From the NCBI RefSeq assembly GCF_038443385.1, contig NZ_CP151726.1, positions 4,526,001 through 4,590,000 on the forward strand: a stretch of DNA of 64,000 nucleotides. The letters run 5' to 3'. The position numbers and the translations under genes were made by a program. Position 1 is the stretch's first letter. Every line of letters starts with the position of its first letter. Shown in pieces: positions 8,471 to 57,294 of the stretch. The notes beneath the pieces were generated by a model. That model saw only the letters and a list, made by a program, of their open reading frames with translations. It did not search any database and was not told the DNA's origin. The DNA comes from Stieleria varia (GTDB lineage Bacteria; Planctomycetota; Planctomycetia; Pirellulales; Pirellulaceae).

Positions 8471-9547
8471 TTGCCCAATAAGTGGATGGCCATTGACCAT
8501 CGAACGATCATGTCCGGCCAGCGCCGCGGACCGGCGGCGATGATGTTGCGCGCCGTCTTGAGATGCGCAAGCGTCCCCTACGGGATCGCAGTCCGACGAC
8601 GCAATCGCGGCTACGACTCTGGCAAAGCAGAAATCCATCACGCAGGTGTCCCAGTGATCAGCGTTGGCAATTTGACCACCGGCGGCACGGGCAAGACGCC
8701 GATCGTCTGTTATCTGGCCAAGCTGCTGCGTGAAGAAAACTTGCGTGTGTCCATTGTCAGTCGTGGTTACGGACGAGGCGAAGCCGACCAGAACGACGAA
8801 GCTGCCGAGTTGGCCGAGCGTTTGCCCGATGTGCCGCATGTCCAAGATCCCGATCGGGTGGCAGCCGCTCGAATCGCTGTGGAAGAATTGGAAAGCGAAG
8901 TCATCTTGATGGACGATGGATTTCAGCACCGACGTTTGCATCGCGATTTGGACATCGTGGTGATCGACATGACGTGTCCCTTCGGATTCGACGCCTTGCT
9001 GCCTCGCGGCCTGTTGCGTGAGCCCGTCACCGGACTGCGACGCGCCGGTATGGTGATGCTGTCGCGATGCGACCAAGTCGATGCGGGTGATATCGATCGC
9101 GTGCTCACGGTGATCCGGCAGCATGCGCCGGATGTCGCGGTGATTCGGACCCAGCATCGTCCGGAATGCATGTTGGAGTATCCCAGCGAGACCTTGCCAT
9201 TGAGCGAGCTGATCGATTGTCCGGTTGCGTTGATCAGTGCGATCGGAAATCCGATGGCGTTTGAACGAACGGTTCAGTCGTGCGGAGCAAGAATCGTCGC
9301 GTCCAAGCAATTGCCCGACCACGATCCCTATTCACCCGAGTGTGTCGCTGAGCTGGATCGGTGGCTCCGATCGCTTGATGGGGTTGCGAAGGTTTTGTGT
9401 ACCCACAAGGACTTGGTGAAACTGCAAACCGATCGATTGGGCGGCTTGCCGCTTTCGGCGATGTTGATCGGATTATCGGTGGATCAACCGGAGCTTGTGC
9501 GCGACACGGTGATGCAAGTGATCTGTCGCCGCTCCGCTGCTGAATAG
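8471..9547 (+). CDS. lpxK: Tetraacyldisaccharide 4'-kinase (lipid A)
   Basis: A 358-residue protein. VPVISVGNLTTGGTGKTPIV holds the Walker A loop (71-77); SIVSRGYGR, DEAAELAERLP and ILMDDGFQHRRLHRDLDIVVID are all LpxK signatures. The enzyme phosphorylates the 4' position of the lipid A disaccharide at the inner membrane, so this organism makes lipid A. No other lpx gene is near. The start used is TTG at 8471; ATG at 8486 would drop five residues. The last residues (VICRRSAAE) and the stop are encoded by the beginning of the repeat island that follows, so the native C-terminus was probably replaced when the repeats arrived. Confidence 0.93.
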   Translation: MPNKWMAIDHRTIMSGQRRGPAAMMLRAVLRCASVPYGIAVRRRNRGYDSGKAEIHHAGVPVISVGNLTTGGTGKTPIVCYLAKLLREENLRVSIVSRGYGRGEADQNDEAAELAERLPDVPHVQDPDRVAAARIAVEELESEVILMDDGFQHRRLHRDLDIVVIDMTCPFGFDALLPRGLLREPVTGLRRAGMVMLSRCDQVDAGDIDRVLTVIRQHAPDVAVIRTQHRPECMLEYPSETLPLSELIDCPVALISAIGNPMAFERTVQSCGARIVASKQLPDHDPYSPECVAELDRWLRSLDGVAKVLCTHKDLVKLQTDRLGGLPLSAMLIGLSVDQPELVRDTVMQVICRRSAAE

Positions 9548-10197
9548 CTGCGGAGCAGCGACAGCGTCATGCGTTTGGTGCAATCCACATGCACGGTGTT
9601 TCCCCGTGCAATCTGTCGCCGCTCCGCGGCTTGATGGGGTGTGTGGGGTGGCAGTAACCTGGGGCTCACGCCCCAGGCTATGTGCTGTCGTCGCATCCGC
9701 GACTGAATAGCTGCGGAGCAGCGAAAGCATAAAGCATGGGGTGTAAACCCCATGTTTTGTGCAACCCGTTCACCCAGCCAGCTGCGGAGCAGCGACAGCG
9801 TAATGCGTTTGGTGCAACCCATAGGCACGACGTTCCCGGATGCAATCTGTCGCCGCTCCGCGGCTTGTTGGCGGCGTCTGGCGGCGTTCACCTGGGGCTC
9901 GCGCCCCAGGCTGTATGCTGTCGTCGCGTCCGCGACTGAATAGCTGCGGAGCAGCGAAAGCATAAAGCATGGGGTGCCAACCCCATGTTTTGGAAAGCCC
10001 GTCAGACCAGCCAGCTGCGGAGCAGCGACAGCGTCATGCGTTTGGTGCAATCCACATGCACGGTGTTTCCGCATGCAATCTGTCGCCGCTCCGCGGCTTG
10101 ATGGGGTGTGTGGGGTGGCATTAACCTGGGGCTCACGCCCCAGGCTATGTGCTGTCGTCGCATCCGCGACTGAATAGCTAACCTGGGGTTCACGCCC
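9523..10197. repeat. REP-like tandem array, part 1 (about 3 units of 233-234 bp)
   Basis: Successive units start with AATCTGTCGCCGCTCCGCGG at about 9610, 9844 and 10077, a spacing of 234 and 233. Each unit carries four small hairpins of one design: CTGTC, a 5-bp stem, and a TCC or ATCC loop. The forms are CTGTC-GCCGC-TCC-GCGGC, CTGTC-GTCGC-ATCC-GCGAC, and two copies of (CTGTC or CTTTC)-GCTGC-TCC-GCAGC on the opposite strand. Two perfect or near-perfect 20-bp palindromes complete the unit: CCTGGGGCTCGCGCCCCAGG and CATGGGGTGTAAACCCCATG. The array starts inside the 3' end of lpxK and ends at an IS4-type element. Open frames running through it are not regarded as genes. Confidence 0.92.
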
Positions 10198-11814
10198 TTG
10201 TCTTTACCCACAAGTCGTCACGCCTTTTTTGTATCAGCAAGTTCCATTCCGGCAACTAGGAGCTGAAGTTTCTGGAATCCGTACCAGATGGTGTGCCAGC
10301 CTGGCTCGCCGTCGCTTTTTCGCCCAATGAATCCACCCAGGTTGGCAACTTGACGAAAAAATTCGTAAACCGTTAGCTTAGTGAGTTTCAACTTGGGGCG
10401 GTACACGGCAAGACAACGCAGCCAAGCGTGCGGAATTCGATTTCTGGCCTTGGCGGTCTGGTCGTTGCGTCCAACAAGTTTCAACTGAAACAAGCGGACA
10501 CCTATCACACTGGTCAATGCGATCTGAGCTTCCAGACGATCCGCCGAACGCAACGAGTGGCCTTCAAGATTACATCCGGATTTAAGTACTTTGTGGTACT
10601 CCTCGATCAGCCAACGATTTTCATAATCCGAGACGACCTGCCAAGCATCTTCCAGTGTCGCCGCTGGAAGACTTGTCAATAAGACCCACTCAATAGATGA
10701 GACTCCCTTTGGTGCATTGACTTCTCGTACAACCACCACATTCATCGTGATTTCTTCGATCCCAAAGCTCCGAATCTTCGGGCTCACCTGTGACGGACGA
10801 GGAAAGGTTACTTCGGCAACGAGTATCTCCATCGTTGCCGTTCTTGCCTTCACTCCTGGGCGGCTGCGCAAAGATAATTCATAAGTGCCAACGCGCATTG
10901 CATTGCCCACAGCCTGCCTAAGGCTCACCTTTTCTCCGCGATTATCGATGACTTTACGCGAAAGCCTCGAAGCACGAATTACCCAGTCATCCCCAGTCCT
11001 AACGATATGGCACATGGTTTCGAAGCTATCGCCACCACGATCAAAAACGTGGACCCACTGGCTACCCTCCGGGGAAGGCCCGATGCGATCGACAAGATCT
11101 CCCCACAAGCTGCTTTCGCGATAACGTTTCAGGCGTTGTGTCCGAGTTTCATCTTTTGGGACATGTTTTCGTTTGAATAGAATTGCCCCCGCTTCGCCGA
11201 CAATTTGCTCGTTATCACAATCGTACATCAAGCAATTGTGCAATTGAAACCCGCGACCGACGCCACTGCCCAACATCCCAAGGCCTGTGGTCGCCTTGTG
11301 AGAGAAGTGGTCGATGTCGGTTGTATCGCTGATTAACAAATACCGACCGGGCTTTGTATCGCGAGTCTTATTCCAATGTGATGAAGCGATCGAATCCAAT
11401 GTCGCTTCGGGTCGATTGAACAACCCGTACGCGGCCTTCAGATCGGACCATTTTGTGTTCTGTTTGCACAAAGACTGATCCGGAGCGTCGAGCATATTTT
11501 TAGCGACGGTCTGTAATCGTTTATTCCGTCGAGGGTCCCCCAAATCGCAATTGGAGAAATGTTCCTCAACCCACTGCGCATTGTCGAGCACTTTCATCAC
11601 AATCCATTCCCTCAAAAAAATCTGTGACTAGGCCGACACCTCCTTGCCGGCGCTTCTTGGTAGCTTCCAAATCATCCTGGCCACAACGCAATCTTTGCGA
11701 TTGACAACGACCAATTCACCTTCATCGTGTTTCACGCGATCACTCACACGGACAAAAACGACGTGAAAATCCCTCGCGTTTCACGCCGATTGGTAGACTT
11801 GTGGGTAAAGACAA
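10198..11814 (-). mobile_element. Complete IS4-type insertion sequence (1617 bp)
   Basis: It is bounded by perfect 19-bp terminal inverted repeats, TTGTCTTTACCCACAAGTC at 10198-10216 and the exact complement at 11796-11814. The terminal sequence resembles the IS50 outer end. It sits inside the CCTGGGG..CCCCAGG palindrome of the repeat array: the flanks are GGGTTCACGCCC (10186-10197) and GGGCTCACGCCC (11815-11826), a 12-bp repeat with one mismatch. Both flanks extend into a perfect 69-bp direct repeat (10129-10197 and 11815-11883). One transposase gene fills the element. Confidence 0.92.
10218..11597 (-). CDS. IS4 family transposase (IS50-like group)
   Basis: A 459-residue DDE transposase. 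The N-terminal DLGDPRRNKRLQTVAKNM domain is typical of IS4/Tn5-type enzymes. Catalytic residues can be placed at LLISDTTDIDH (first D), HVFDRGGDSFE (second D) and YENRWLIEEYHKVLKSG (E), the last fitting the IS4 signature Y-(2)-R-(3)-E-(6)-K. Length is usual and no frameshift is seen, so the element may still be active. ATG at 11597 is preferred over a TTG 18 bases upstream. The stop codon lies close to the left terminal repeat, and the gene is read leftwards. Confidence 0.93.
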   Translation of the reverse strand: MKVLDNAQWVEEHFSNCDLGDPRRNKRLQTVAKNMLDAPDQSLCKQNTKWSDLKAAYGLFNRPEATLDSIASSHWNKTRDTKPGRYLLISDTTDIDHFSHKATTGLGMLGSGVGRGFQLHNCLMYDCDNEQIVGEAGAILFKRKHVPKDETRTQRLKRYRESSLWGDLVDRIGPSPEGSQWVHVFDRGGDSFETMCHIVRTGDDWVIRASRLSRKVIDNRGEKVSLRQAVGNAMRVGTYELSLRSRPGVKARTATMEILVAEVTFPRPSQVSPKIRSFGIEEITMNVVVVREVNAPKGVSSIEWVLLTSLPAATLEDAWQVVSDYENRWLIEEYHKVLKSGCNLEGHSLRSADRLEAQIALTSVIGVRLFQLKLVGRNDQTAKARNRIPHAWLRCLAVYRPKLKLTKLTVYEFFRQVANLGGFIGRKSDGEPGWHTIWYGFQKLQLLVAGMELADTKKA

Positions 11815-12009
11815 GGGCTCACGCCCCAGGCTATGTGCTGTCGTCGCATCCGCGACTGAATAGCTAACCTGGGGTTCACGCCCCAGGCTGTATGCTGTCG
11901 TCGCGTCTGCGACTGAATAGCTGCGGAGCAGCGAAAGCATAAAGCATGGGGTGTAAACCCCATGTTTTGGAAAGCCCGTCAGACCAGCCAGCTGCGGAGC
12001 AGCGACAGA
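11815..12009. repeat. REP-like array, part 2
   Basis: Continuation of the array on the far side of the IS4-type element. It holds the second 69-bp copy (11815-11883), a CCTGGGGTTCACGCCCCAGG palindrome, the CTGTC-GTCGC hairpin, the CATGGGGTGTAAACCCCATG palindrome and finally GCTGCGGAGCAGCGACAG. Right after this last hairpin the usual spacer is replaced by the Y1 transposase gene. Confidence 0.9.
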
Positions 12010-12027
12010 CCCGAGGAGGTAGAGCAC

Positions 12028-12495
12028 GTGTCCAGCACCCACACAAACCTTTTGTTTCATATCGTTTTCAGCACCAAATATCGTCGCGATTTGATCACAC
12101 CGGAGATTCAACCTCGTCTCTATGAGTACATCGGCGGCATAGTCCGGGATCAGCACGGTTCATTGCTGGAAATCGGTGGCATTGCCAATCACGTTCATTT
12201 ACTCGCAAAGCTCAGTCCTCGAATAGCATTCTCTGACGCAATACGTGTTGTGAAAGCAAACTCAAGCAAGTGGCTGAATGAAACCTTTCAACCGAAGCAC
12301 ACTTTTCGATGGCAGCGCGGCTACGGCGCTTTTTCGGTAAGCCTTTCGTCCGTTCCAGCAGTCACGCAGTACATACAAAATCAAGAGAGTCACCACACCA
12401 AGCGGACTTTTGAAGATGAGTACCGCGCGATGTTGATACGCCACGGCATCCAGTTTGAGGAGCGGTACCTGTTTGAAGACGAGCACTTTCAGTGA
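12028..12495 (+). CDS. HUH (Y1) transposase, IS200/REP-associated type
   Basis: A 155-residue single-strand DNA transposase. HTNLLFHIVFSTKYRR is the usual opening of this family, NHVHLL (H55, H57) is the metal-binding HUH motif, and Y115 in VTQYIQNQESHH is the likely nucleophile. WQRGYGAFSVS and QNQESHHTKRTFEDEY are also typical. The start is GTG at 12028 because GAGGAGGT lies 8 bases upstream; an earlier ATG in frame is inside repeat sequence. The gene is embedded in the array: GCTGCGGAGCAGCGACAG ends 19 bases before the start, and TCTGTCGCCGCTCCGCGGC begins at the base after the stop. These two hairpins are inverted copies of each other (two mismatches), so the gene takes the place of the normal spacer. 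This resembles a RAYT with its REP sequences. Confidence 0.9.
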   Translation: MSSTHTNLLFHIVFSTKYRRDLITPEIQPRLYEYIGGIVRDQHGSLLEIGGIANHVHLLAKLSPRIAFSDAIRVVKANSSKWLNETFQPKHTFRWQRGYGAFSVSLSSVPAVTQYIQNQESHHTKRTFEDEYRAMLIRHGIQFEERYLFEDEHFQ

Positions 12496-13635
12496 TCTGT
12501 CGCCGCTCCGCGGCTTGATGGTGTGTGTCGGGCGGCGTTCACCTGGGGCTCGCGTCCCAGGCTGTATGCTGCCGTCGCATCCGCGACTAAATAGCTGCGG
12601 AGCAGCGAAAGCATAAAGCATGGGGTGTAAACCCTATGTTTTGTGCAACCCGTTCACCCAGCCAGCTGCGGAGCAGCGACAGCGTAATACGTTTGGTGCA
12701 ACCCATAGGCACGACGTTCCCGGATGCAATCTGTCGCCGCTCCGCGGCTTGATGGTGTGTGTCGGGCGTTCACCTGGGGCTCGCGCCCCAGGCTGTATGC
12801 TGCCGTCGCGTCCGCGACTGAATAGCTGCGGAGCAGCGAAAGCATAAAGCATGGGGTGTAAACCCCATGTTTTGTGCAACCCGTTCACCCAGCCAGCTGC
12901 GGAGCAGCGACAGCGTAATGCGTTTGGTGCAACCCATAGGCACGACGTTCCCGGATGCAATCTGTCGCCGCTCCGCGGCTTGTTGGTGGACGTCGGGCGT
13001 TCACCTGGGGCTCGCGTCCCAGGCTGTATGCTGTCGTCGCATCCGCGACTAAATAGCTGCGGAGCAGCGAAAGCATAAAGCATGGGGTGCCAACCCCATG
13101 TTTTGGAAAGCCCGTCTGACCAGCCAGCTGCGGAGCAGTGACAGCGTAATACGTTTGGTGCAACCCATAGGCACGACGTTCCCGGATGCAATCTGTCGCC
13201 GCTCCGCGGCTTGATGGTGTGTGTCGGGCGTTCACCTGGGGCTCGCGCCCCAGGCTGTATGCTGCCGTCGCATCCGCGACTAAATAGCTGCGGAGCAGCG
13301 AAAGCATAAAGCATGGGGTGCCAACCCCATGTTTTGGAAAGCCCGTCTGACCAGCCAGCTGCGGAGCAGCGACAGCGTAATACGTTTGGTGCAACCCATA
13401 GGCACGACGTTCCCGGATGCAATCTGTCGCCGCTCCGCGGCTTGTTGGTGGACGTCGGGCGTTCACCTGGGGCTCGCGCCCCAGGCTGTATGCTGTCGTC
13501 GCGTCCGCGACTAAGGCGGTTGCTGCGCAATCCAGAATCGTCGTTGGATAGCTGCGGATCGTTCACCTGGGGCTCGCGCCCCAGGCTGTATGCTGTCGTC
13601 GCGTCCGCGACTGAATAGCTGCGGAGTAGCGGTCG
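12496..13635. repeat. REP-like tandem array, part 3 (about 5 units of 231 bp)
   Basis: Unit starts AATCTGTCGCCG lie at 12728, 12959, 13190 and 13421, exactly 231 bases apart, with a further unit beginning right after the transposase gene at 12496. Units differ by a few substitutions, so the array grew recently. Because 231 is 3 x 77, long open frames with 77-residue repeats cross it (for example minus strand 12634-13566); they contain no recognisable domain and follow the palindromes, so I treat them as non-coding. The last unit is altered after 13514 and ends a few bases from the aspS stop codon at 13638. Confidence 0.92.
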
Positions 13636-13637
13636 CT

Positions 13638-15419
13638 TTATGCCTTCGGTTTTGGCAGCACCGTACGTAAATGCAGCTCGGCCAGCTGGGCGTCGTCCAC
13701 GTTGCCGGGGGCTTCGGTCATCAAATCCGATGCCTTTTGCGTCTTGGGGAACGCGATGACTTCGCGGATGTTGTCCAAGCCGGCGAAGAGCATTACCCAG
13801 CGGTCGATTCCCAGGGCGATACCGCCGTGTGGTGGCGCTCCGAATCGTAATGCGTTGAGCAAGAACCCGAAGCGATCTTCCGCGGTCGCTTCGTCGATTC
13901 CCAGCAACCCGAACACTTGCGACTGGGTGGCTTGATCGTGAATCCGGATCGTGCCCCCGCCGGCTTCGCTACCGTTGATGACCAAGTCATAGGCTTGGGC
14001 GCGACAGGCTTGCGGCTCGCTGCCCAACTTTTCCAGATCGCTTTTCAGCGGCGCGGTGAAGGGATGGTGCATGGCGTTCCAGCGTCCCGACTCTTCGTCC
14101 TTTTCGAACATCGGGAACTCAGTCACCCAACTGCAGTGCAGTGCGTCGTCGTCGTAAAGTTTCAGTTCAGCACCGAGCCGTTTGCGCAGTGCGTTCAGTC
14201 CTTTACAGGTAACTTCCCACGTATCGGCCAGGAACATCAGCAAGTCGCCTGGTTGGCCGCCCATCAGGGATTTGATTTCGTCCAAGTGTTCTGCTTCAAA
14301 GTTCTTTGCCACGGGGCTCCACAGCGACCCATCGGCTTCGACGCGGAACCAAGCGAGTCCCTTTGCTCCGAAATCTTTGACGAAGTTCGTCAGTTCATCG
14401 ATCTGGCGACGCGAGTACTGTTCGGCTGCGTTTTCGACTCGGAGGCCGCGGACGAAGTTGCCCGCATCGGCGGTGGCGCGGAAGACGCGGAACTCGGTCT
14501 TCTTTGCGACTTCGGTCACGTCGGTGATCTCCATGCCGAATCGCAAGTCCGGCGCGTCGTGCCCGAATCGCCGCATGGCTTCGTCGTACGTCATGCGAGG
14601 TAGCGGCAGTTGGATGTCCTTGCCGTGGACTTCCTTGGCCGTGCGTGCGACCAGCCCATCGATCAAGCCCATGATGTCATCAGAATCGACGAACGACATT
14701 TCCAAGTCGAGTTGGGTGAACTCGGGTTGGCGGTCGGCCCGCAGGTCTTCGTCGCGAAAACACTTGGCGACTTGGACATAGCGGTCGAAACCGGCGACCA
14801 TCAGGATCTGTTTGTAGAGCTGGGGCGACTGGGGCAGCGCGTAGAAGCTGCCGGGGTGAACGCGGCTGGGAACCAAATAGTCGCGGGCGCCTTCTGGAGT
14901 GCTGCGTCCGAGAATCGGCGTTTCGACATCGACGAAATCGTGTTCGGCGAAGTAGTCCCGCATGATCTTGATGATCTTGCTGCGAAGAAACAGGGACCGC
15001 TGCATGTCGCTGCGACGCAGGTCCAGGAAGCGGTATTTCAACCGCAGGTCTTCGCCGGGCAGCTCGGATTGGCCGGGGGTGAAGGGAGGGGTTTGGCAGG
15101 TGTTCAGGATCTCGAACTCGTTGCAACGGACTTCGATATCCCCGGTGGCAAGTTTCGCGTTGGATTTGCCTTCCAAGCGATCGGAGACGGTGCCGCGGAT
15201 CAGAATCACGCTTTCGGCGGGGACGCGACCGACGTTTTCGATTTGCGCCGCGGTGGCTTCGGGCGGCCCGATGACGACTTGGGTCAAGCCGTAGCGGTCG
15301 CGAAGGTCGATGAAGACCGCGCCGCCGTGGTCGCGTTTGTTCTCGACCCAGCCGCAAAGGGTGACTTCGGTTCCGACGTCGGATTTACGGAGTTGTCCGC
15401 AGGTATGAGTGCGTAGCAC
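13638..15419 (-). CDS. aspS: Aspartyl-tRNA synthetase
   Basis: A class II synthetase of 593 residues from the GTG at 15419. That start gives VLRTHTCGQLR, the standard beginning of bacterial AspRS; an ATG at 15491 would add 24 unrelated residues. The anticodon-binding OB fold comes first (GWVENKRDHGGAVFIDLRDRYG). Motif 2 is CFRDEDLRADRQPEFTQLD, the bacterial GAD insertion region is present, and motif 3 is GIALGIDRWVMLF. It charges tRNA-Asp (and in some bacteria tRNA-Asn) with aspartate. The stop codon directly abuts the repeat island, and the upstream gene on the same strand is an MFS transporter with its own terminator. Confidence 0.96.
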   Translation of the reverse strand: MLRTHTCGQLRKSDVGTEVTLCGWVENKRDHGGAVFIDLRDRYGLTQVVIGPPEATAAQIENVGRVPAESVILIRGTVSDRLEGKSNAKLATGDIEVRCNEFEILNTCQTPPFTPGQSELPGEDLRLKYRFLDLRRSDMQRSLFLRSKIIKIMRDYFAEHDFVDVETPILGRSTPEGARDYLVPSRVHPGSFYALPQSPQLYKQILMVAGFDRYVQVAKCFRDEDLRADRQPEFTQLDLEMSFVDSDDIMGLIDGLVARTAKEVHGKDIQLPLPRMTYDEAMRRFGHDAPDLRFGMEITDVTEVAKKTEFRVFRATADAGNFVRGLRVENAAEQYSRRQIDELTNFVKDFGAKGLAWFRVEADGSLWSPVAKNFEAEHLDEIKSLMGGQPGDLLMFLADTWEVTCKGLNALRKRLGAELKLYDDDALHCSWVTEFPMFEKDEESGRWNAMHHPFTAPLKSDLEKLGSEPQACRAQAYDLVINGSEAGGGTIRIHDQATQSQVFGLLGIDEATAEDRFGFLLNALRFGAPPHGGIALGIDRWVMLFAGLDNIREVIAFPKTQKASDLMTEAPGNVDDAQLAELHLRTVLPKPKA

Positions 15420-15529
15420 GGATTCTGGATCTGATGGAGGAAAGAAGCGGGAGGGGTCAAGGCGACGAATTCTAAACGCTGCAGCCGCCATTGCTCAGGG
15501 GCTGCACAGCAAGGAAATCGGTGGTTCGC

Positions 15530-18091: not shown

Positions 18092-18138
18092 AGCTACATG
18101 AGTTAATTTCCACACGTCCCGAAGGGACAGAAATAAGT

Positions 18139-18292
18139 AGCCCAGGGCAGAGCGCAGCGTCGCCCTGGGGTGCGGTGCGTCGTTACCATCCTCAAGCCCC
18201 GACGTGGGCGTTACAGTGTTTTGCCCCTTCAGGGCGAAGGTATTCGGCGGGTGTTCGATTACCCAGGGCGGCGCTGCGCTCTGCCCTGGGCT
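18139..18292. repeat. Palindromic element with 31-bp arms
   Basis: Arms at 18139-18169 and 18262-18292 (AGCCCAGGGCAGAGCGCAGC...) match as inverted repeats with one mismatch, around about 92 bases of centre. Smaller palindromes (CCCGAAGGGAC, CCCCTTTGGGGC) lie just outside. There is no coding capacity. Together with the neighbouring repeats it explains the 460 bases between the peroxidase gene and the second IS. Confidence 0.75.
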
Positions 18293-18391
18293 TTCATGTT
18301 CGGCCCCTTTGGGGCGTGGCGACAACAAGCGTCCTGGCTCTTTGCAAGAATCACCCGGATCAATGATTGCTATGTGGATTCAGTAATCCCC

Positions 18392-18436
18392 TCAGTCGCG
18401 GATGCGACGACGGCATACAGCCTGGGGCGCGAGCCC
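18392..18436. repeat. REP-like repeat fragment, left of second IS
   Basis: Inverted copy of the array unit seen at 9.5-13.6 kb: GTCGCGGATGCGACGACGG, then CATACAG and CCTGGGGCGCGAGCCC, where the IS begins. It continues after the IS at 19955. Confidence 0.85.
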
Positions 18437-19954
18437 TCTTTATCCTACACATCTCCGATGAGCCTTTTGTAGGCGAGGAAAGCTTCGTGGTACGACTCGA
18501 TTTTCCGCATTCCTCGCCAGATCGTTGTGGAGCCGGGCGGGCCTTGGCCTTTCTTGTCCAGATAGCCGCCAAGCTTGGCGACCACCAGCATCCATTCGCC
18601 GATCGTGGGAGGTGTTTCGGGAACCTCACGTCCGGCAAAGACCACGAGGTACGTCGCCTTCCAAAAACTGGCATCGTAGAAACGCTCGCAACTGACTTGC
18701 GGACAAACTCGATTGGCGGTCTTGAGTTGCTCGACTCGAAACCCAGTGATCATCAAAAGCGTCACCGCACGCACGTATGTATCGATCTGCTCGTACTTCA
18801 GCTTCTCAATCTTCATGCCGCTCTTGAGCGTCTTGAAATACAGTTCGATGTCCCAGCGGCGACAATAAGAACCAATGACTCGTTCGATTTCCGAGATCGT
18901 CGAAATGGGGAGCGATGTAAAAAGTAACCAGCGGATCGGCTCTTCGCCTTCGGGTGCGTCCGTTTCGACGGCCTCGACAACATTGATCGTCACGTCGGGA
19001 GCACGACCACCAGGGCGTGCCGGGCCGCGTAAAGTGACCTGCCGGGCACGAATCGAAATCGATGCTACCCGGGCACTGCGACTCATCCGACGAGCACGCG
19101 TTTCTCCGATAATTAATGACTTTCGCTCGCTTAAATCGATTTCACGCTGAAACTGAAACTCCGTCTCCTGCATCACTTCGGAGATCGTCCTGGTTTCACC
19201 TTGATCGAGCACTGTGCGATCTTGGCAACCACGAATGACGTAGTCATAGTTGGCCGCCAGATCATCGGTTTGCGCTAGCAATTCATAAATATCAGACTCG
19301 CTGTCCGAGACGCCAATGTAGTGCGTCTGGGGATGAGCCAGTGCGATTTGCTCGCCACTTTGAAACATCTCCAGCCAACGGTAGCTTTCTTTTTCTTCAA
19401 AGGCTTGCTGGCGTCGCAGGTTGACTTTTTCTGTTTTGTTCAGATCCGTCTTGATGTCATCACGCGTCCAAATGCACTGATCGACCGTGCCCAGAACAAG
19501 TCCATCCTCGGTGATCGCATAGAGTGGGTGCAGAAAGAAACCGAATTTGTCCCGACTCTCCAACGGCCCGGCCCCGCGGACTTGCCGCTGTGGTTTGGTG
19601 AGATCACAGACGGTGGTATCCTGGGATAGGATGACGACCGGTTGCTCGGCGGTGCGAGCGATTGAAGCATCATTGTGGGCTTTGAGAATGCCGTCCACAG
19701 GGATATTTCGATTGTTTACCAAACGGTAGGTTGCCTCAAGTTTCGCGTTGTCCTTACACGCACTGGGCGTAGATTCGGCAATCTCGGACTGTTGCTCAAG
19801 AATCAGGGCGACACGTCGCTCCCGCCGCTTATCACCTAAATCCAAAGTCCGAAGCTCATCTTTTATCCAGCTTGCCATTGTCCCGATCCCTGGGGAAGTG
19901 TTTTGTCGACTCCAACCGACCAAAGGGTAGAAAAAAAGATGTGTAGGATAAAGA
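18437..19954 (-). mobile_element. Second complete IS4-type insertion sequence (1518 bp)
   Basis: It is bounded by 18-bp perfect inverted repeats, TCTTTATCCTACACATCT at 18437-18454 and the complement at 19937-19954, and flanked by an exact 12-bp target duplication GGGCGCGAGCCC (18425-18436 and 19955-19966). The target is the CCTGGGG..CCCCAGG palindrome of the REP-like unit, the same palindrome in which the first IS sits. The element encodes one transposase. Confidence 0.94.
18445..19878 (-). CDS. IS4 family transposase (second type)
   Basis: A 477-residue DDE transposase, only distantly similar to the enzyme at 10218. ATG at 19878 (MASWIKDELRTLDLGDKRRERR) is chosen because the frame upstream of it runs out of the IS into repeat sequence. 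Catalytic residues: D in VILSQDTTVCD, D in IGVSDSESDIYE, and E in YCRRWDIELYFKTLKSG, matching the IS4 signature Y-(2)-R-(3)-E-(6)-K. The gene is intact and the terminal repeats and target duplication are perfect, so the insertion is recent. The stop codon is within the left terminal repeat. Confidence 0.93.
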   Translation of the reverse strand: MASWIKDELRTLDLGDKRRERRVALILEQQSEIAESTPSACKDNAKLEATYRLVNNRNIPVDGILKAHNDASIARTAEQPVVILSQDTTVCDLTKPQRQVRGAGPLESRDKFGFFLHPLYAITEDGLVLGTVDQCIWTRDDIKTDLNKTEKVNLRRQQAFEEKESYRWLEMFQSGEQIALAHPQTHYIGVSDSESDIYELLAQTDDLAANYDYVIRGCQDRTVLDQGETRTISEVMQETEFQFQREIDLSERKSLIIGETRARRMSRSARVASISIRARQVTLRGPARPGGRAPDVTINVVEAVETDAPEGEEPIRWLLFTSLPISTISEIERVIGSYCRRWDIELYFKTLKSGMKIEKLKYEQIDTYVRAVTLLMITGFRVEQLKTANRVCPQVSCERFYDASFWKATYLVVFAGREVPETPPTIGEWMLVVAKLGGYLDKKGQGPPGSTTIWRGMRKIESYHEAFLAYKRLIGDV

Positions 19955-20155
19955 GGGCGCGAGCCCCAGGTGAACACCCGACGCCGCCAACAAGCCGCGG
20001 AGCGGCGACAGATTGCATCCGGACCACCGCGTGCTGTGGGCTACACCAAACGTTTTATGCTGTCGCTGCTCCGCAGCTTCTGGGCGGACTCGCTTGCAGA
20101 AACATGGGGTTGGCACCCCATGCTGTATGCTGTCGCTGCTCCGCAGCTATCGGAG
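19955..20155. repeat. REP-like repeat fragment, right of second IS
   Basis: The inverted array unit continues: GGGCGCGAGCCCCAGG, GCCGCGGAGCGGCGACAG, then two CTGTC-GCTGC-TCC-GCAGC hairpins and CATGGGGTTGGCACCCCATG. Between 20156 and 20354 are only small degenerate hairpins, including a GAATAAGTGTC / GACACTTATTTTC pair and a CGACTTAGAAAGTCG hairpin near 20328 that also recurs near 30450 and 47935. No gene is seen in this stretch. Confidence 0.85.
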
Positions 20156-27570: not shown

Positions 27571-27740
27571 CAATCTGTCGCCGCTCCGCGGCTCGTTGGC
27601 GGCGTCGGGCGGCGTTCACCTGGGGCTCGCGCCCCAGGCTGTATGCTGTCGTCGCATCCGCGACTGAGGCGGTGGTTGCGCAATCCAAAATCGGCGTCGG
27701 ATAGCTGCGGAGCAGCGACAGTGCTAACCCCATGTTTTGG
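27571..27740. repeat. REP-like repeat, solitary unit
   Basis: One altered unit of the family at 9.5-13.6 kb: CTGTC-GCCGC-TCC-GCGGC, CCTGGGGCTCGCGCCCCAGG, CTGTC-GTCGC-ATCC-GCGAC, a GCGGTGGTTGCGCAATCC segment shared with the last unit near 13515-13550, then GCTGCGGAGCAGCGACAG and CCCCATGTTTTGGG. It runs into the 3' end of a decayed gene. Confidence 0.88.
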
Positions 27741-40274: not shown

Positions 40275-42125
40275 ATGAAAAGGCTGTGGTTAATGCCTGC
40301 CCTTGCGATCATCGCGATCGTTTCGGGTGCAAAATCCTCAAGCGCTGCTTATTGCGGCGCGATCAGCTACCAAGGCTGTAGCGGATGTGGAAGTTCGGTC
40401 GTCGCCGAAGGTGCTGCTGCTGATGCAGTGGTTTCCGAAGGCGCTATCGTGGACGAAGCTGCTGGTGCAGCCGTCGGCGGTGGCAGCTACACCGTGATGC
40501 GTAACGTTCAGGAAACGGTTTACGAGCAAGTTCAAGAAACTCGTTATCGTACCCGCAACGAAACGTACTACGAAGACCAAGAAGTCCAAGCGACTCGCAT
40601 GGTTCCCTACACGGAACAACGCGAAGTCCAGTACACGGTCATGGTTCCAACCTATGAAACCAAGACCCGCACGATCAACTACACGGTCAACAAGCCCGTG
40701 TATGAAACTCACTCACGAGTGATCAACTACACGGTCAAAAAACCCGTGTACGAGACCAAGACCCGTACGATCAACTACACGGTTCAAAAGCCCGTGTACG
40801 AAACGCACGAGCGAGTGATCAACTACACCGTCAAGAAGCCCGTTTACGAGACCAAGACTCGTACGATCAACTACACGGTCAACAAGCCGGTTTACGAAAC
40901 TCACAGCAAGACCATCAACTACACCGTGATGGTTCCTGTTCAAGAGCAAAAGAGCCGCACGATCAACTACACGGTCTACAACACCGTGCAAGAGCAAAAG
41001 GTCCGCACAGAGAACTACAGCGTTGTTGTTCCTGAGCAATACACCAAGACGGTAACCGTCAACGGTGGACATTGGGAAACGCAAACCGAAACCGTTCCTG
41101 GCCCGATGATGCGTCGCACCGTTCGTGAGCCTGGCACGTGGACGTTTGATCCGTCGACCTGCCGCAACGTATACTGCCCAGGCGCTTGCCGAGTAGAATG
41201 CGTTCAAGGTTGCCCGAAGACCATCTGCAAGAAGGTTTGGGTCCCAACCTGCGAGCAAAAGGAAGTCACCTGCACCCGCTATCGTCGTGAGTGCCGAACT
41301 CGTGAAATCCCTTACACCGTGTGCCGCAAGGTAGCCGAGTGCCGCTCGAAGGTTGAAAACTACACCGTCTGCAAGATGGTCCCAGAATGCCGCACCAAGG
41401 TTTGCAACTACACCGTTTGCAAAATGGTTCCTGAGTGCCGCACCAAGACCTGCAACTACACCGTTTGCAGCTACGTCTGCGAGCCTCGCACCAAAGTTTG
41501 CAAGTACACGACTTGCAAAATGGTTTCCGAGTGCCGCACCAAGACTTGCAACTACACCGTTTGCAGCTATGTCTGCGAACAACGTAGCAAGACTTGCAAC
41601 TACACCGTCTGCAAGATGGTCCCAGAATGCCGCACGAAGACCTGCAACTACACCGTTTGCAAAATGGTTCCTGAGTGCCGCACCAAGACCGTTTGCGTCA
41701 ACAAGTGCCGTCAAGAGTGCTACACCAAGACGATCAAAGTCGCCAAGTGCCGCAAGGTTTGCGAACCTTACACGGTCACCAAGTGCGTCCCACGAGTCGT
41801 CTGCAAGCAAGTTCCTGTGACCGTCTGCTGCCCAGCTCCCGCTTGCGGATCAGCTTGTGGTGACGGTTCAGATTGCGGATGTGGTGCTGCAGCCGGTAGC
41901 GACTGCGGATGTGGCGCTGCCAGCAGCGACTGCGGATGTGCAGCTGCTCCAGCTTGCGGTTGCGAAGCTCCCGCTTGCGGCGGTTGCTCGGCTCCCAAGT
42001 CCTGCTTCGGCGGTGGCTTGCTGAAGAAGTTGTTCGGCGGTTGCAACAAAGGTTGCAGCAGCAGCTGCTGCGACGTTGTCGAACCAGCTTGCGGTTGCGA
42101 AGCTGCTCCCTCCTGCGGATGCTAG
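40275..42125 (+). CDS. YTV-domain cysteine-rich cell-wall protein
   Basis: A 616-residue exported protein; GGAGAG lies 9 bases before the ATG, and residues 1-24 are a signal peptide ending SSA. The first half is built from units around NYTVxKPVYETKTRTI (about ten copies, residues 115-270). The second half is built from cysteine-rich units around CNYTVCKMVPECRTKT (about eight, residues 340-490), and the C-terminus is very rich in Cys, Gly and Ala (SDCGCGAAAG). These are YTV domains, which belong to proteins of the protein-rich planctomycete wall; the many cysteines should crosslink. Strong codon regularity suggests high expression. A terminator follows, so it is a single transcript. Confidence 0.93.
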   Translation: MKRLWLMPALAIIAIVSGAKSSSAAYCGAISYQGCSGCGSSVVAEGAAADAVVSEGAIVDEAAGAAVGGGSYTVMRNVQETVYEQVQETRYRTRNETYYEDQEVQATRMVPYTEQREVQYTVMVPTYETKTRTINYTVNKPVYETHSRVINYTVKKPVYETKTRTINYTVQKPVYETHERVINYTVKKPVYETKTRTINYTVNKPVYETHSKTINYTVMVPVQEQKSRTINYTVYNTVQEQKVRTENYSVVVPEQYTKTVTVNGGHWETQTETVPGPMMRRTVREPGTWTFDPSTCRNVYCPGACRVECVQGCPKTICKKVWVPTCEQKEVTCTRYRRECRTREIPYTVCRKVAECRSKVENYTVCKMVPECRTKVCNYTVCKMVPECRTKTCNYTVCSYVCEPRTKVCKYTTCKMVSECRTKTCNYTVCSYVCEQRSKTCNYTVCKMVPECRTKTCNYTVCKMVPECRTKTVCVNKCRQECYTKTIKVAKCRKVCEPYTVTKCVPRVVCKQVPVTVCCPAPACGSACGDGSDCGCGAAAGSDCGCGAASSDCGCAAAPACGCEAPACGGCSAPKSCFGGGLLKKLFGGCNKGCSSSCCDVVEPACGCEAAPSCGC

Positions 42126-56521: not shown

Positions 56522-57294
56522 TGCGTCGTCCAGTCTTAGAACGCGGGGTCCGATCAATGAGCCGTTTTGGCGTTAGCCACGGTTTTCGCGACTCTTAGAA
56601 CGCGGGGTTCGATCAATGAGCCGTTTTGGCGTTAGCCACGGTTTTCGCGACTCTTAGAACGCGGGGTTCGATCAATGAGCCGTTTTGGCGTTAGCCACGG
56701 TTTTCGCGACTCTTAGAACGCGGGTTTGATCAATGAGCCGTTTTGGCGTTAGCCACGGTTTTCGCGACTCTTAGAACGCGGGTTTGATCAATGAGCCGTT
56801 TTGGCGTTAGCCACGGTTTTCGCGACTCTTAGAACGCGGGTTTGATCAATGAGCCGTTTTGGCGTTAGCCACGGTTTTCGCGACTCTTAGAACGCGGGTT
56901 TGATCAATGAGCCGTTTTGGCGTTAGCCACGGTTTTCGCGACTCTTAGAACGCGGGTCCGATCAATGAGCTGTTTTGGCGTTAGCCACGGTTCTCGCGAC
57001 TCTTAGAACGCGGGTCCGATCAATGAGCCGTTTTGGCGTTAGCCACGGTTTTCGCGACTCTTAGAACGCGGGGTTCGATCAATGAGCCGTTTTGGCGTTA
57101 GCCACGGTTTTCGCGACTCTTAGAACGCGGGGTTCGATCAATGAGCTGTTTTGGCGTTAGCCACGGTTTTCGCGACTCTTAGAACGCGGGGTCCGATCAA
57201 TGAGCCGTTTTGGCGTTAGCCAAGGTTTTCGCGACTCAACCGTGGCTAACGCCAAAACGGCTAACCCCAAAATCAAGTCTGGACGATGCACTAG
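56518..57294. mobile_element. MITE-like element, expanded copy C (777 bp, 12 tandem units)
   Basis: The ends match copies A and B (CTAG plus TGCRTCGTCC terminal repeats), in the opposite orientation. Inside, the stem sequence around ATCAATGAGCCGTTTTGGCG followed by TTAGCCACGGTTTTCGCGAC is present twelve times head to tail with period 59 (58 in units carrying GGGTTTGATC). It then closes with one inverted arm, CCGTGGCTAACGCCAAAACGG. The units are almost identical, so the expansion is recent and may vary between strains. There is no coding capacity. Confidence 0.92.

Follow-up and report, generated by a model that had tools for sequence, protein, structure and literature searches.

A tandem array of 231-234 bp units fills the interval between two convergent open reading frames (ORFs), 8471-9547 (+) and 13638-15491 (-), in the 64,000-nt stretch of Stieleria varia DNA analysed here (the window; contig NZ_CP151726.1, positions 4,526,001 to 4,590,000); the names lpxK-like and aspS-like given to these ORFs are a reading of the frames, with no family search. 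One unit of the array holds a gene, 12028-12495, for a predicted Y1 transposase (TnpA_Y1), an HUH enzyme with a single tyrosine. We consider it very probable that the units belong to a family of mobile elements in the style of REPINs (repetitive extragenic palindrome (REP) doublets forming hairpins), with compound ends, and that TnpA_Y1 enzymes of subclass 1.2 serve this family; binding, cleavage and movement by the enzyme we infer, and we document the anatomy, conservation, co-occurrence, dispersal and Watson-Crick covariation of the ends.

An earlier description of the array, made from the letters alone (the sequence-only reading), placed it at 9523-13635 and saw in each 231-bp unit hairpins of one plan, in the order plus, plus, minus, minus, together with two 20-bp palindromes. 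These features are there: each unit comprises two 20-nt palindromes and four short hairpins of the plan CTGTC + 5-bp stem + (A)TCC loop, one of the four reading CTTTC. With at most 3 mismatches allowed, the hairpin pattern matches 29 times in the window; shuffled sequences average 0.37 matches. Two particulars had to be amended. The array is interrupted by an IS4-family insertion sequence (IS) with exact 20-bp inverted ends, 10197-11815, which had gone unmentioned; and the spacer between the inner hairpins of gene-less units, put at about 64 bp, measures 48 bp, 66 being the start-to-start distance. In one unit the transposase gene takes the position of this spacer, and here the description was exact: the gene begins 19 nt past GCTGCGGAGCAGCGACAG (11991-12008) and ends one nt ahead of CTGTCGCCGCTCCGCGGC (12497-12514).

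Model R1, trained on 16 end halves from five genomes (the window's and four others), finds six complete gene-less units and one gene-bearing unit in the array, separated by linkers of 6 bp except for a longer one at the right margin. Because complete copies dispersed in the genome keep the hairpin order H1-, H2-, H3+, H4+, the natural unit is H1-P-H2-spacer-H3-P-H4 (H, hairpin; P, palindrome); a unit of the array is thus one whole element, not an arbitrary slice. The features are listed below by window position, those with no strand sign being unstranded; RF01687 is the Rfam family Acido-Lenti-1, with a gathering score of 37 bits.

9523-9705: array left margin; chimeric first hairpin, lying within the 3' end of ORF 8471-9547, then H2, a spacer of 48 bp and, at 9613-9705, a full right end
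9708-9938: gene-less element 1 (R1); left end 9708-9798 (-), spacer 48 bp, right end 9847-9938 (+)
9941-10172: gene-less element 2 (R1); ends 9941-10031 (-) and 10080-10172 (+)
10197-11815: IS4-family insertion sequence in an array palindrome; transposase 10218-11615 (-)
11816-11914 (+): two pieces, each palindrome + H4, after the IS and before the gene-bearing unit; RF01687 30.2 and 35.5 bits, under gathering
11918-12008 (-): left compound end, H1-palindrome-H2, of the gene-bearing unit; R1 72.5 bits; RF01687 39.7 bits over its outer part, 11919-11964
12013-12020 (+): ribosome-binding-site-like GAGGAGGT, by reading, within the 19 nt that separate H2 from the start codon
12028-12495 (+): TnpA_Y1 transposase gene, GTG start, 155 aa
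12497-12589 (+): right compound end, H3-palindrome-H4, of the gene-bearing unit; R1 65.7 bits; RF01687 33.3 bits, under gathering
12592-12820: gene-less element 3 (R1); ends 12592-12682 (-) and 12731-12820 (+)
12823-13051: gene-less element 4 (R1); ends 12823-12913 (-) and 12962-13051 (+)
13054-13282: gene-less element 5 (R1); ends 13054-13144 (-) and 13193-13282 (+)
13285-13513: gene-less element 6 (R1); ends 13285-13375 (-) and 13424-13513 (+)
13514-13635: array right margin; linker, partial right end (R1 13535-13613), half hairpin

The same parts recur throughout the 9.72-Mb genome, where the hairpin CTGTCGCYGCTCCGCRGC has 100 exact matches and the pattern read backwards has none. A second array (L073), at 4.301 Mb, comprises six complete units and partial ones, with a period of 266-267 bp and a linker of 39 bp; by eye, the linker that closes the window array on its right resembles this one. 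The pattern of linkers, 39 bp in the second array and similar at the right margin of the first, 6 bp elsewhere, resembles duplication plus deletion.

The window protein matches Pfam Y1_Tnp (E 1e-27), the NCBIfam IS200/IS605 family (2.3e-22) and the IS608-type structures PDB 2a6m and 2vhg (3e-11). It has the HUH motif as NHVH, a W-Q motif and a predicted catalytic tyrosine in YIQNQESHH; H55, H57, Y115, Q119, H122 and H123 are invariant in a 20-row alignment, and as far as sequence can tell the fold family and catalytic residues are clear. The pattern Y---Q--HH marks TnpA_Y1 subclass 1.2, characterized in PMC6006769 by HUH as DH[IV]H, WQ, a length of about 150 aa and low copy number. Among 83 near-complete homologs (those of the 94 loci L088-L181 whose match spans residue 12 to 140, window copy counted) Y---Q--HH occurs in 82, DHVH or DHIH in 60, and the NHVH of the window protein in 12. 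The S. varia genome holds four matches to the protein, the best other full-length one being 39% identical: the low copy number expected of subclass 1.2, not the several near-identical transposase copies typical of IS200/IS605. By motif, then, we assign the protein to subclass 1.2.

Like a REP-associated tyrosine transposase (RAYT), to which the sequence-only reading likened it, the enzyme is encoded between inverted multi-copy hairpins. A classical RAYT (TnpA_REP, class 2) was nevertheless rejected as its identity: the Y motif YIQNQESHH is not that of class 2, Y---NP, and the hairpin foot lacks GT[AG]G, the inner foot being TGTC or TGCC in 67 of the 150 best R1 matches, with GTAG and GTGG outside the 12 commonest.

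Compound ends beyond the window

Reading of the flanks of homologous genes revealed the same end plan in many records: an inner hairpin with a T-G-Y-C foot, a linker of 21-26 nt, a palindrome with an 8-bp stem, CTA, and an outer hairpin whose foot is of the same type, spanning about 86-93 nt in all, the two ends facing each other. A search with R1 of 92 homolog loci, training locus L098 excluded, gave 240 matches. At the 81 genes that remain when the window copy and L098 are taken from the 83, an outward end lies upstream of 50 and downstream of 48; 34 have both and 64 at least one, and the expectation that such hairpins accompany this kind of transposase is borne out. The ends sit close to the genes: 31 of 52 upstream ends finish no more than 29 nt from the start codon, and 36 of 50 downstream ends begin no more than 17 nt past the stop. 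Outward ends on both sides occur in records labelled Planctomycetota, Acidobacteriota groups, Verrucomicrobia, Bacteroidetes and Magasanikbacteria, and on at least one side in three labelled Chlamydiae (L134, L136, L138); since most of the homolog records are metagenome-assembled, the phylum labels may err. The ends in the window and at these 64 genes contradict the description of subclass 1.2, which Table 1 and the subclass section of PMC6006769 list without REP and generally without IS200-type end structure, but not the protein class.

Controls for R1 were largely empty. No match was found at 13 aspS loci of other genomes, and among 26 other Y1 loci of the S. varia genome, some of them overlapping, matches were confined to a stray element copy (L025), a single place (L017/L019) with a broken subclass 1.2 gene, and a weak one at E 0.003 (L015). 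A test independent of the model, with percentiles drawn from mismatched locus pairs, placed inverted similarity between the two flanks above the 95th percentile at 53 of 83 homolog loci and above the 99th at 39; direct repeats, as a control, exceeded the 95th at 26 of 83.

Pairing was counted in the best 150 of the 240 matches. Of the cells 98.1% are paired, with changes on both sides in 18 of 18 pairs: 2547 cells are Watson-Crick, 15 G-T and 50 otherwise composed or broken.

Gene-less elements of the same plan occur in four other genomes, as the view of the spacer-bearing form as the non-autonomous version would have it: 31 inverted pairs, with a median length of 198 bp and a spacer of 5-31 nt (median 20). 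They come from 40 stretches picked by hand, each for a high-scoring RF01687 match or a transposase gene; 19 were chosen as visible inverted pairs, so that the share of pairs among them is no measure of frequency. In genome G029 the flanks of 16 elements are as dissimilar as shuffled ones (median scores 8 and 8 over 120 pairs), apart from one pair that scores 73 and three that score 15-19, the largest shuffled score being 13; three elements in G262 likewise have unrelated flanks. G262 also has a gene in the spacer position, between H2 and H3, as in the window (L265), and in G228 a transposase gene is followed by an outward end and preceded by a whole inverted pair (L246).

Acido-Lenti-1 and the transposase gene

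The palindrome, CTA and outer hairpin of these ends coincide with RF01687, which has 11 matches over gathering in window 9000-14000 and at least 65 at E <= 0.001 in the whole genome (84 candidates scored). Acido-Lenti-1 was predicted in 2010 as a probable RNA (PMC2864571, Table 1), and a 2026 paper, as far as its treatment of the family goes, reports that little is known of it and proposes a regulatory role, near proteases (PMC13298647). Matches to Rfam microRNA and CRISPR-repeat families in the window fell under the gathering score and were disregarded. Because RF01687 was curated apart from our selection of loci, it serves as an independent probe for the ends.

In the genome searches the RNA candidates scored were capped, at 84 per genome for relatives and controls and at 20 for a set of 294 planctomycete genomes. 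Of the latter, 64 have a full subclass 1.2 gene (E <= 1e-30), and RF01687 is present in 60 of them; among the 230 that have no such gene it is present in 18. The counts for both, gene only, RF01687 only and neither are 60/4/18/212 at this threshold and 63/12/15/204 at 1e-10. The presence of the hairpins, as marked by RF01687, largely tracks that of the transposase in planctomycetes. Sixty relatives behave similarly: RF01687 is found in 29 of the 32 whose transposase match is strong (E <= 1e-20) and in 7 of the other 28, that is 29/3/7/21, or 35/8/1/16 at 1e-3, and 20/1/6/19 when the genus of S. varia itself is removed. Other Y1 genes do not predict RF01687, which occurs in 11 of 121 genomes that have such genes and no full subclass 1.2 gene, and in 7 of 109 with no Y1 gene; in 14 well-known control genomes it is found in none, Y1_Tnp in five. 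At the gathering score, run on 60 of the 93 homolog loci L089-L181 and on 20 of the 26 other Y1 loci of the S. varia genome, it appears at just one of the latter 20.

At least mainly, the 46-nt palindrome and outer hairpin that make up RF01687 are most likely the outer part of these DNA ends. More broadly, it is probable that the elements form a REPIN-like family found in several phyla, with ends of two hairpins and a palindrome, mobilised by subclass 1.2 enzymes, in which Acido-Lenti-1 is the outer half of a DNA end and no RNA. Direct tandem arrays of another kind, with RF01687 at intervals of about 73-94 bp (some double), occur on contigs C591, C12, C91 and C549 of genome G021.

Proposed mobility and its alternatives

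How the elements might move is suggested by the better-known REP enzymes: TnpA_REP, as summarized in PMC8266576, attaches to REPs in single-stranded form and cleaves at C|T next to them, with a foot that may work in the manner of an IS605 guide. By analogy, the subclass 1.2 enzyme would bind footed hairpins on DNA made single-stranded at the replication fork or as extruded hairpins, cut beside them through a 5'-phosphotyrosine and join the ends; it would act in cis where the copy bears the gene and in trans where the copy is gene-less. The mirrored arrangement of the ends means that either strand presents, in one half of the element, footed hairpins in the correct orientation. The inner stem ends in C, followed by T, in 16 of 16 training halves, and a cut next to it may be guessed at; it is only a guess, since T follows the inner stem in 70% of the 150 best matches.

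Recombination or replication slippage on palindromes as the source of the arrays, and perhaps of most copies, with no part of the transposase in their spread and its gene a mere passenger in one unit, is unlikely as a full account. The constant linkers favour it, as do the long common flanks of the copies dispersed in the S. varia genome, which look amplified as composites, and the partly common flanks in G228 and G070. It leaves unexplained why subclass 1.2 genes of several phyla lie between the same compound ends, why gene and RF01687 co-occur across genomes, and why single elements in G029 have unrelated flanks. For the arrays themselves recombination or slippage is the likeliest origin. 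The sequence-only reading saw them as products of the transposase; tandem duplication fits equally well, REP pairs in tandem copies (bacterial interspersed mosaic elements, BIMEs) being known, as noted in PMC8266576, and the tandem arrays are probably secondary duplications.

Still less credit can be given to Acido-Lenti-1 as a genuine structured RNA (small RNA, attenuator or terminator) whose place by the gene reflects regulation or control of read-through and involves no transposition. Both papers cited above for the family point that way, and a hairpin straight after a stop codon can terminate transcription. Inverted ends on both sides of 34 of 81 genes speak for a DNA element, as do the gene-less copies of G029, whose flanks are unrelated. 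G-U is tolerated in an RNA helix; the pairing pattern fits DNA hairpins better than RNA, because G-T cells (15) are rarer than broken ones (50).

An ordinary insertion sequence with long terminal inverted repeats, of the TIRtron/TIRYT kind, its hairpins incidental symmetry, would account for ends that are inverted copies of each other, as at the TIRYT genes of PMC3733652, but is very improbable: stem sequences vary while stem length, foot, CTA and spacing stay largely constant, the hairpins and palindrome are separate short palindromes of which inner and outer hairpins repeat one plan, and plain inverted repeats require no internal palindromes.

Several observations weigh against a REPIN-style family moved by subclass 1.2 enzymes, in which, moreover, the enzyme's binding, cleavage and movement of the ends are what we infer. 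Seventeen of the 81 homologs have no outward end, and inward ends lie upstream of 16 and downstream of 18, 28 of 81 having one on at least one side. RF01687 scores over gathering, anywhere in the locus, at only 19 of the 60 homolog loci, and is missing from four genomes with a full subclass 1.2 gene. Hairpin-rich genomes without the transposase, named beforehand as what would speak against the link, exist in part: 18 of the 230 planctomycete genomes have RF01687, richly so in G070, an element-rich genome in whose 93%-complete assembly no subclass 1.2 gene was found. The Fisher probabilities, 2e-7 for the 60 relatives and 4e-41 for the 294 genomes, ignore kinship, and other owners of RF01687 may exist among the class 3 Y1 genes, whose hairpins are atypical, too. 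The perfect pairing of the R1 training halves lifts the pairing counts and may lower the G-T counts. Element flanks in G228 and G070 are partly common (medians of 54 and 14.5, where shuffled flanks give 7.5), so that duplication had a share in these two genomes; and many dispersed copies in the S. varia genome are embedded in a larger composite of about 500 bp, so another enzyme may have moved them. Finally, the search for empty sites yielded no clean one, whether beside the aspS-like gene at the loci of nine same-genus genomes, which lack the array, or within this genome; in the nine relatives the neighbourhood differs, since the protein across the array is unmatched within the stretch examined.

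Among known systems, the RAYTs or REPtrons with their REPINs and BIMEs (class 2 of PMC6006769; Escherichia coli, Pseudomonas, Stenotrophomonas) are alike in having a low-copy Y1 HUH enzyme, inverted short footed hairpins at the gene, many non-autonomous inverted pairs and known tandem copies. The window family differs in its Y---Q--HH motif (Y---NP in RAYTs), its TGTC or TGCC foot (GTAG or GTGG) and its ends, each of two footed hairpins with a palindrome between. With IS200/IS605 (subclass 1.1; IS608, ISDra2), a group marked by strand-specific excision of single-stranded DNA and by target choice through a guide, it shares the match to PDB 2a6m and 2vhg, the Y---Q motif and hairpins near the ends, but its ends are mirrored, inverted compound hairpins, near-identical extra gene copies are absent from this genome, and the gene-bearing unit has no second gene between its ends (by ORF reading, with no tnpB family search). 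Subclass 1.2 corresponds in Y---Q--HH, WQ, a length of about 150 aa and low copy number; as described in PMC6006769 it has no REP, whereas 64 of the 81 homologs tested have compound ends. In RF01687 the likeness is that the palindrome, CTA and outer hairpin of many ends match it over gathering, and the difference that it is filed as a small RNA, while the repeated DNA end seen here is larger and includes it. Class 3 TnpA_Y1 also occurs in planctomycetes and acidobacteria with many-copy atypical hairpins; by its description (PMC6006769, section Class 3) its Y motif is Y----Q and its foot CnGA. Our search, confined to open-licence literature, turned up no paper linking Acido-Lenti-1 or subclass 1.2 to such elements.

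With a REPIN-like family of this kind, HUH transposases of a class described as lacking a substrate would have one, and there would be an explanation for an RNA family that was described in 2010, is still of no known function and in 2026 was considered a possible regulator. If the reading is true, RF01687 annotations in genomes mark mobile DNA ends, and there is a REP-type system beyond the classes of the RAYTs studied; the elements also offer a diverse natural set for studying how Y1 enzymes recognize hairpin, foot and spacing.

Composites, insertion sequences and other repeats

Outside the array the window holds two further copies of the element:

18393-20149: dispersed copy, split in its palindrome by a second IS4-family element (transposase 18445-19977, -)
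27575-27721: partial dispersed copy; right end 27575-27666 (+), then an extra hairpin, 27704-27721 (-)

A further inverted pair of R1 matches, 18114-18214 (-) and 18218-18317 (+), has its members 3 nt apart. The second IS4-family element, window 18393-20011, is different from that at 10197-11815, and both are inserted at almost the same point of the CCTGGGGCTCRCGCCCCAGG palindrome. At the same palindrome point the second element is found in the window copy, which has GGGCTCGCGCCC on either side, and at loci L058, L063, L067 and L084. The two IS4-family elements seem to target the palindrome of the hairpin element, as some insertion sequences target REPs.

The left flank of the dispersed 500-bp composite matches at least 44 places in the genome (40 of 94 candidates scored). 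Those singled out are two complete composites (L184, L189), four shortened ones (L201, L204, L205, L207) and a tandem array of a second family (L206), and no clean uninserted site was found among these seven. The array, at genome 4283364-4284265 (L203, L206, L208-L210), has its relationship with the composite in the left part of the latter.

A second subclass 1.2 transposase, the one 39% identical to the window protein, is encoded at locus positions 1492-1936 of L002 (genome 3215164-3218505). R1 finds no match at L002; by eye its ends follow the same order, but the palindrome loops are longer and the hairpins of GACC type. Sequences like those of L002 make up the outer parts of the composites around the window element, and the two families of hairpin elements, the window's and that of L002, look nested. 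At L019 (genome about 8559698-8560128) the frame-broken subclass 1.2 gene mentioned above lies between two outward ends, of a different hairpin type.

Two other repeats of the window lie apart from these elements. At 40656-41689 tandem repeats recur every 48 and 96 bp, both divisible by three, and perhaps encode a repetitive protein; and at 56534-57237 a 58-bp unit is repeated in 12 tandem copies, 97% alike, after which part of the unit stands inverted, with no resemblance by eye to the hairpins.

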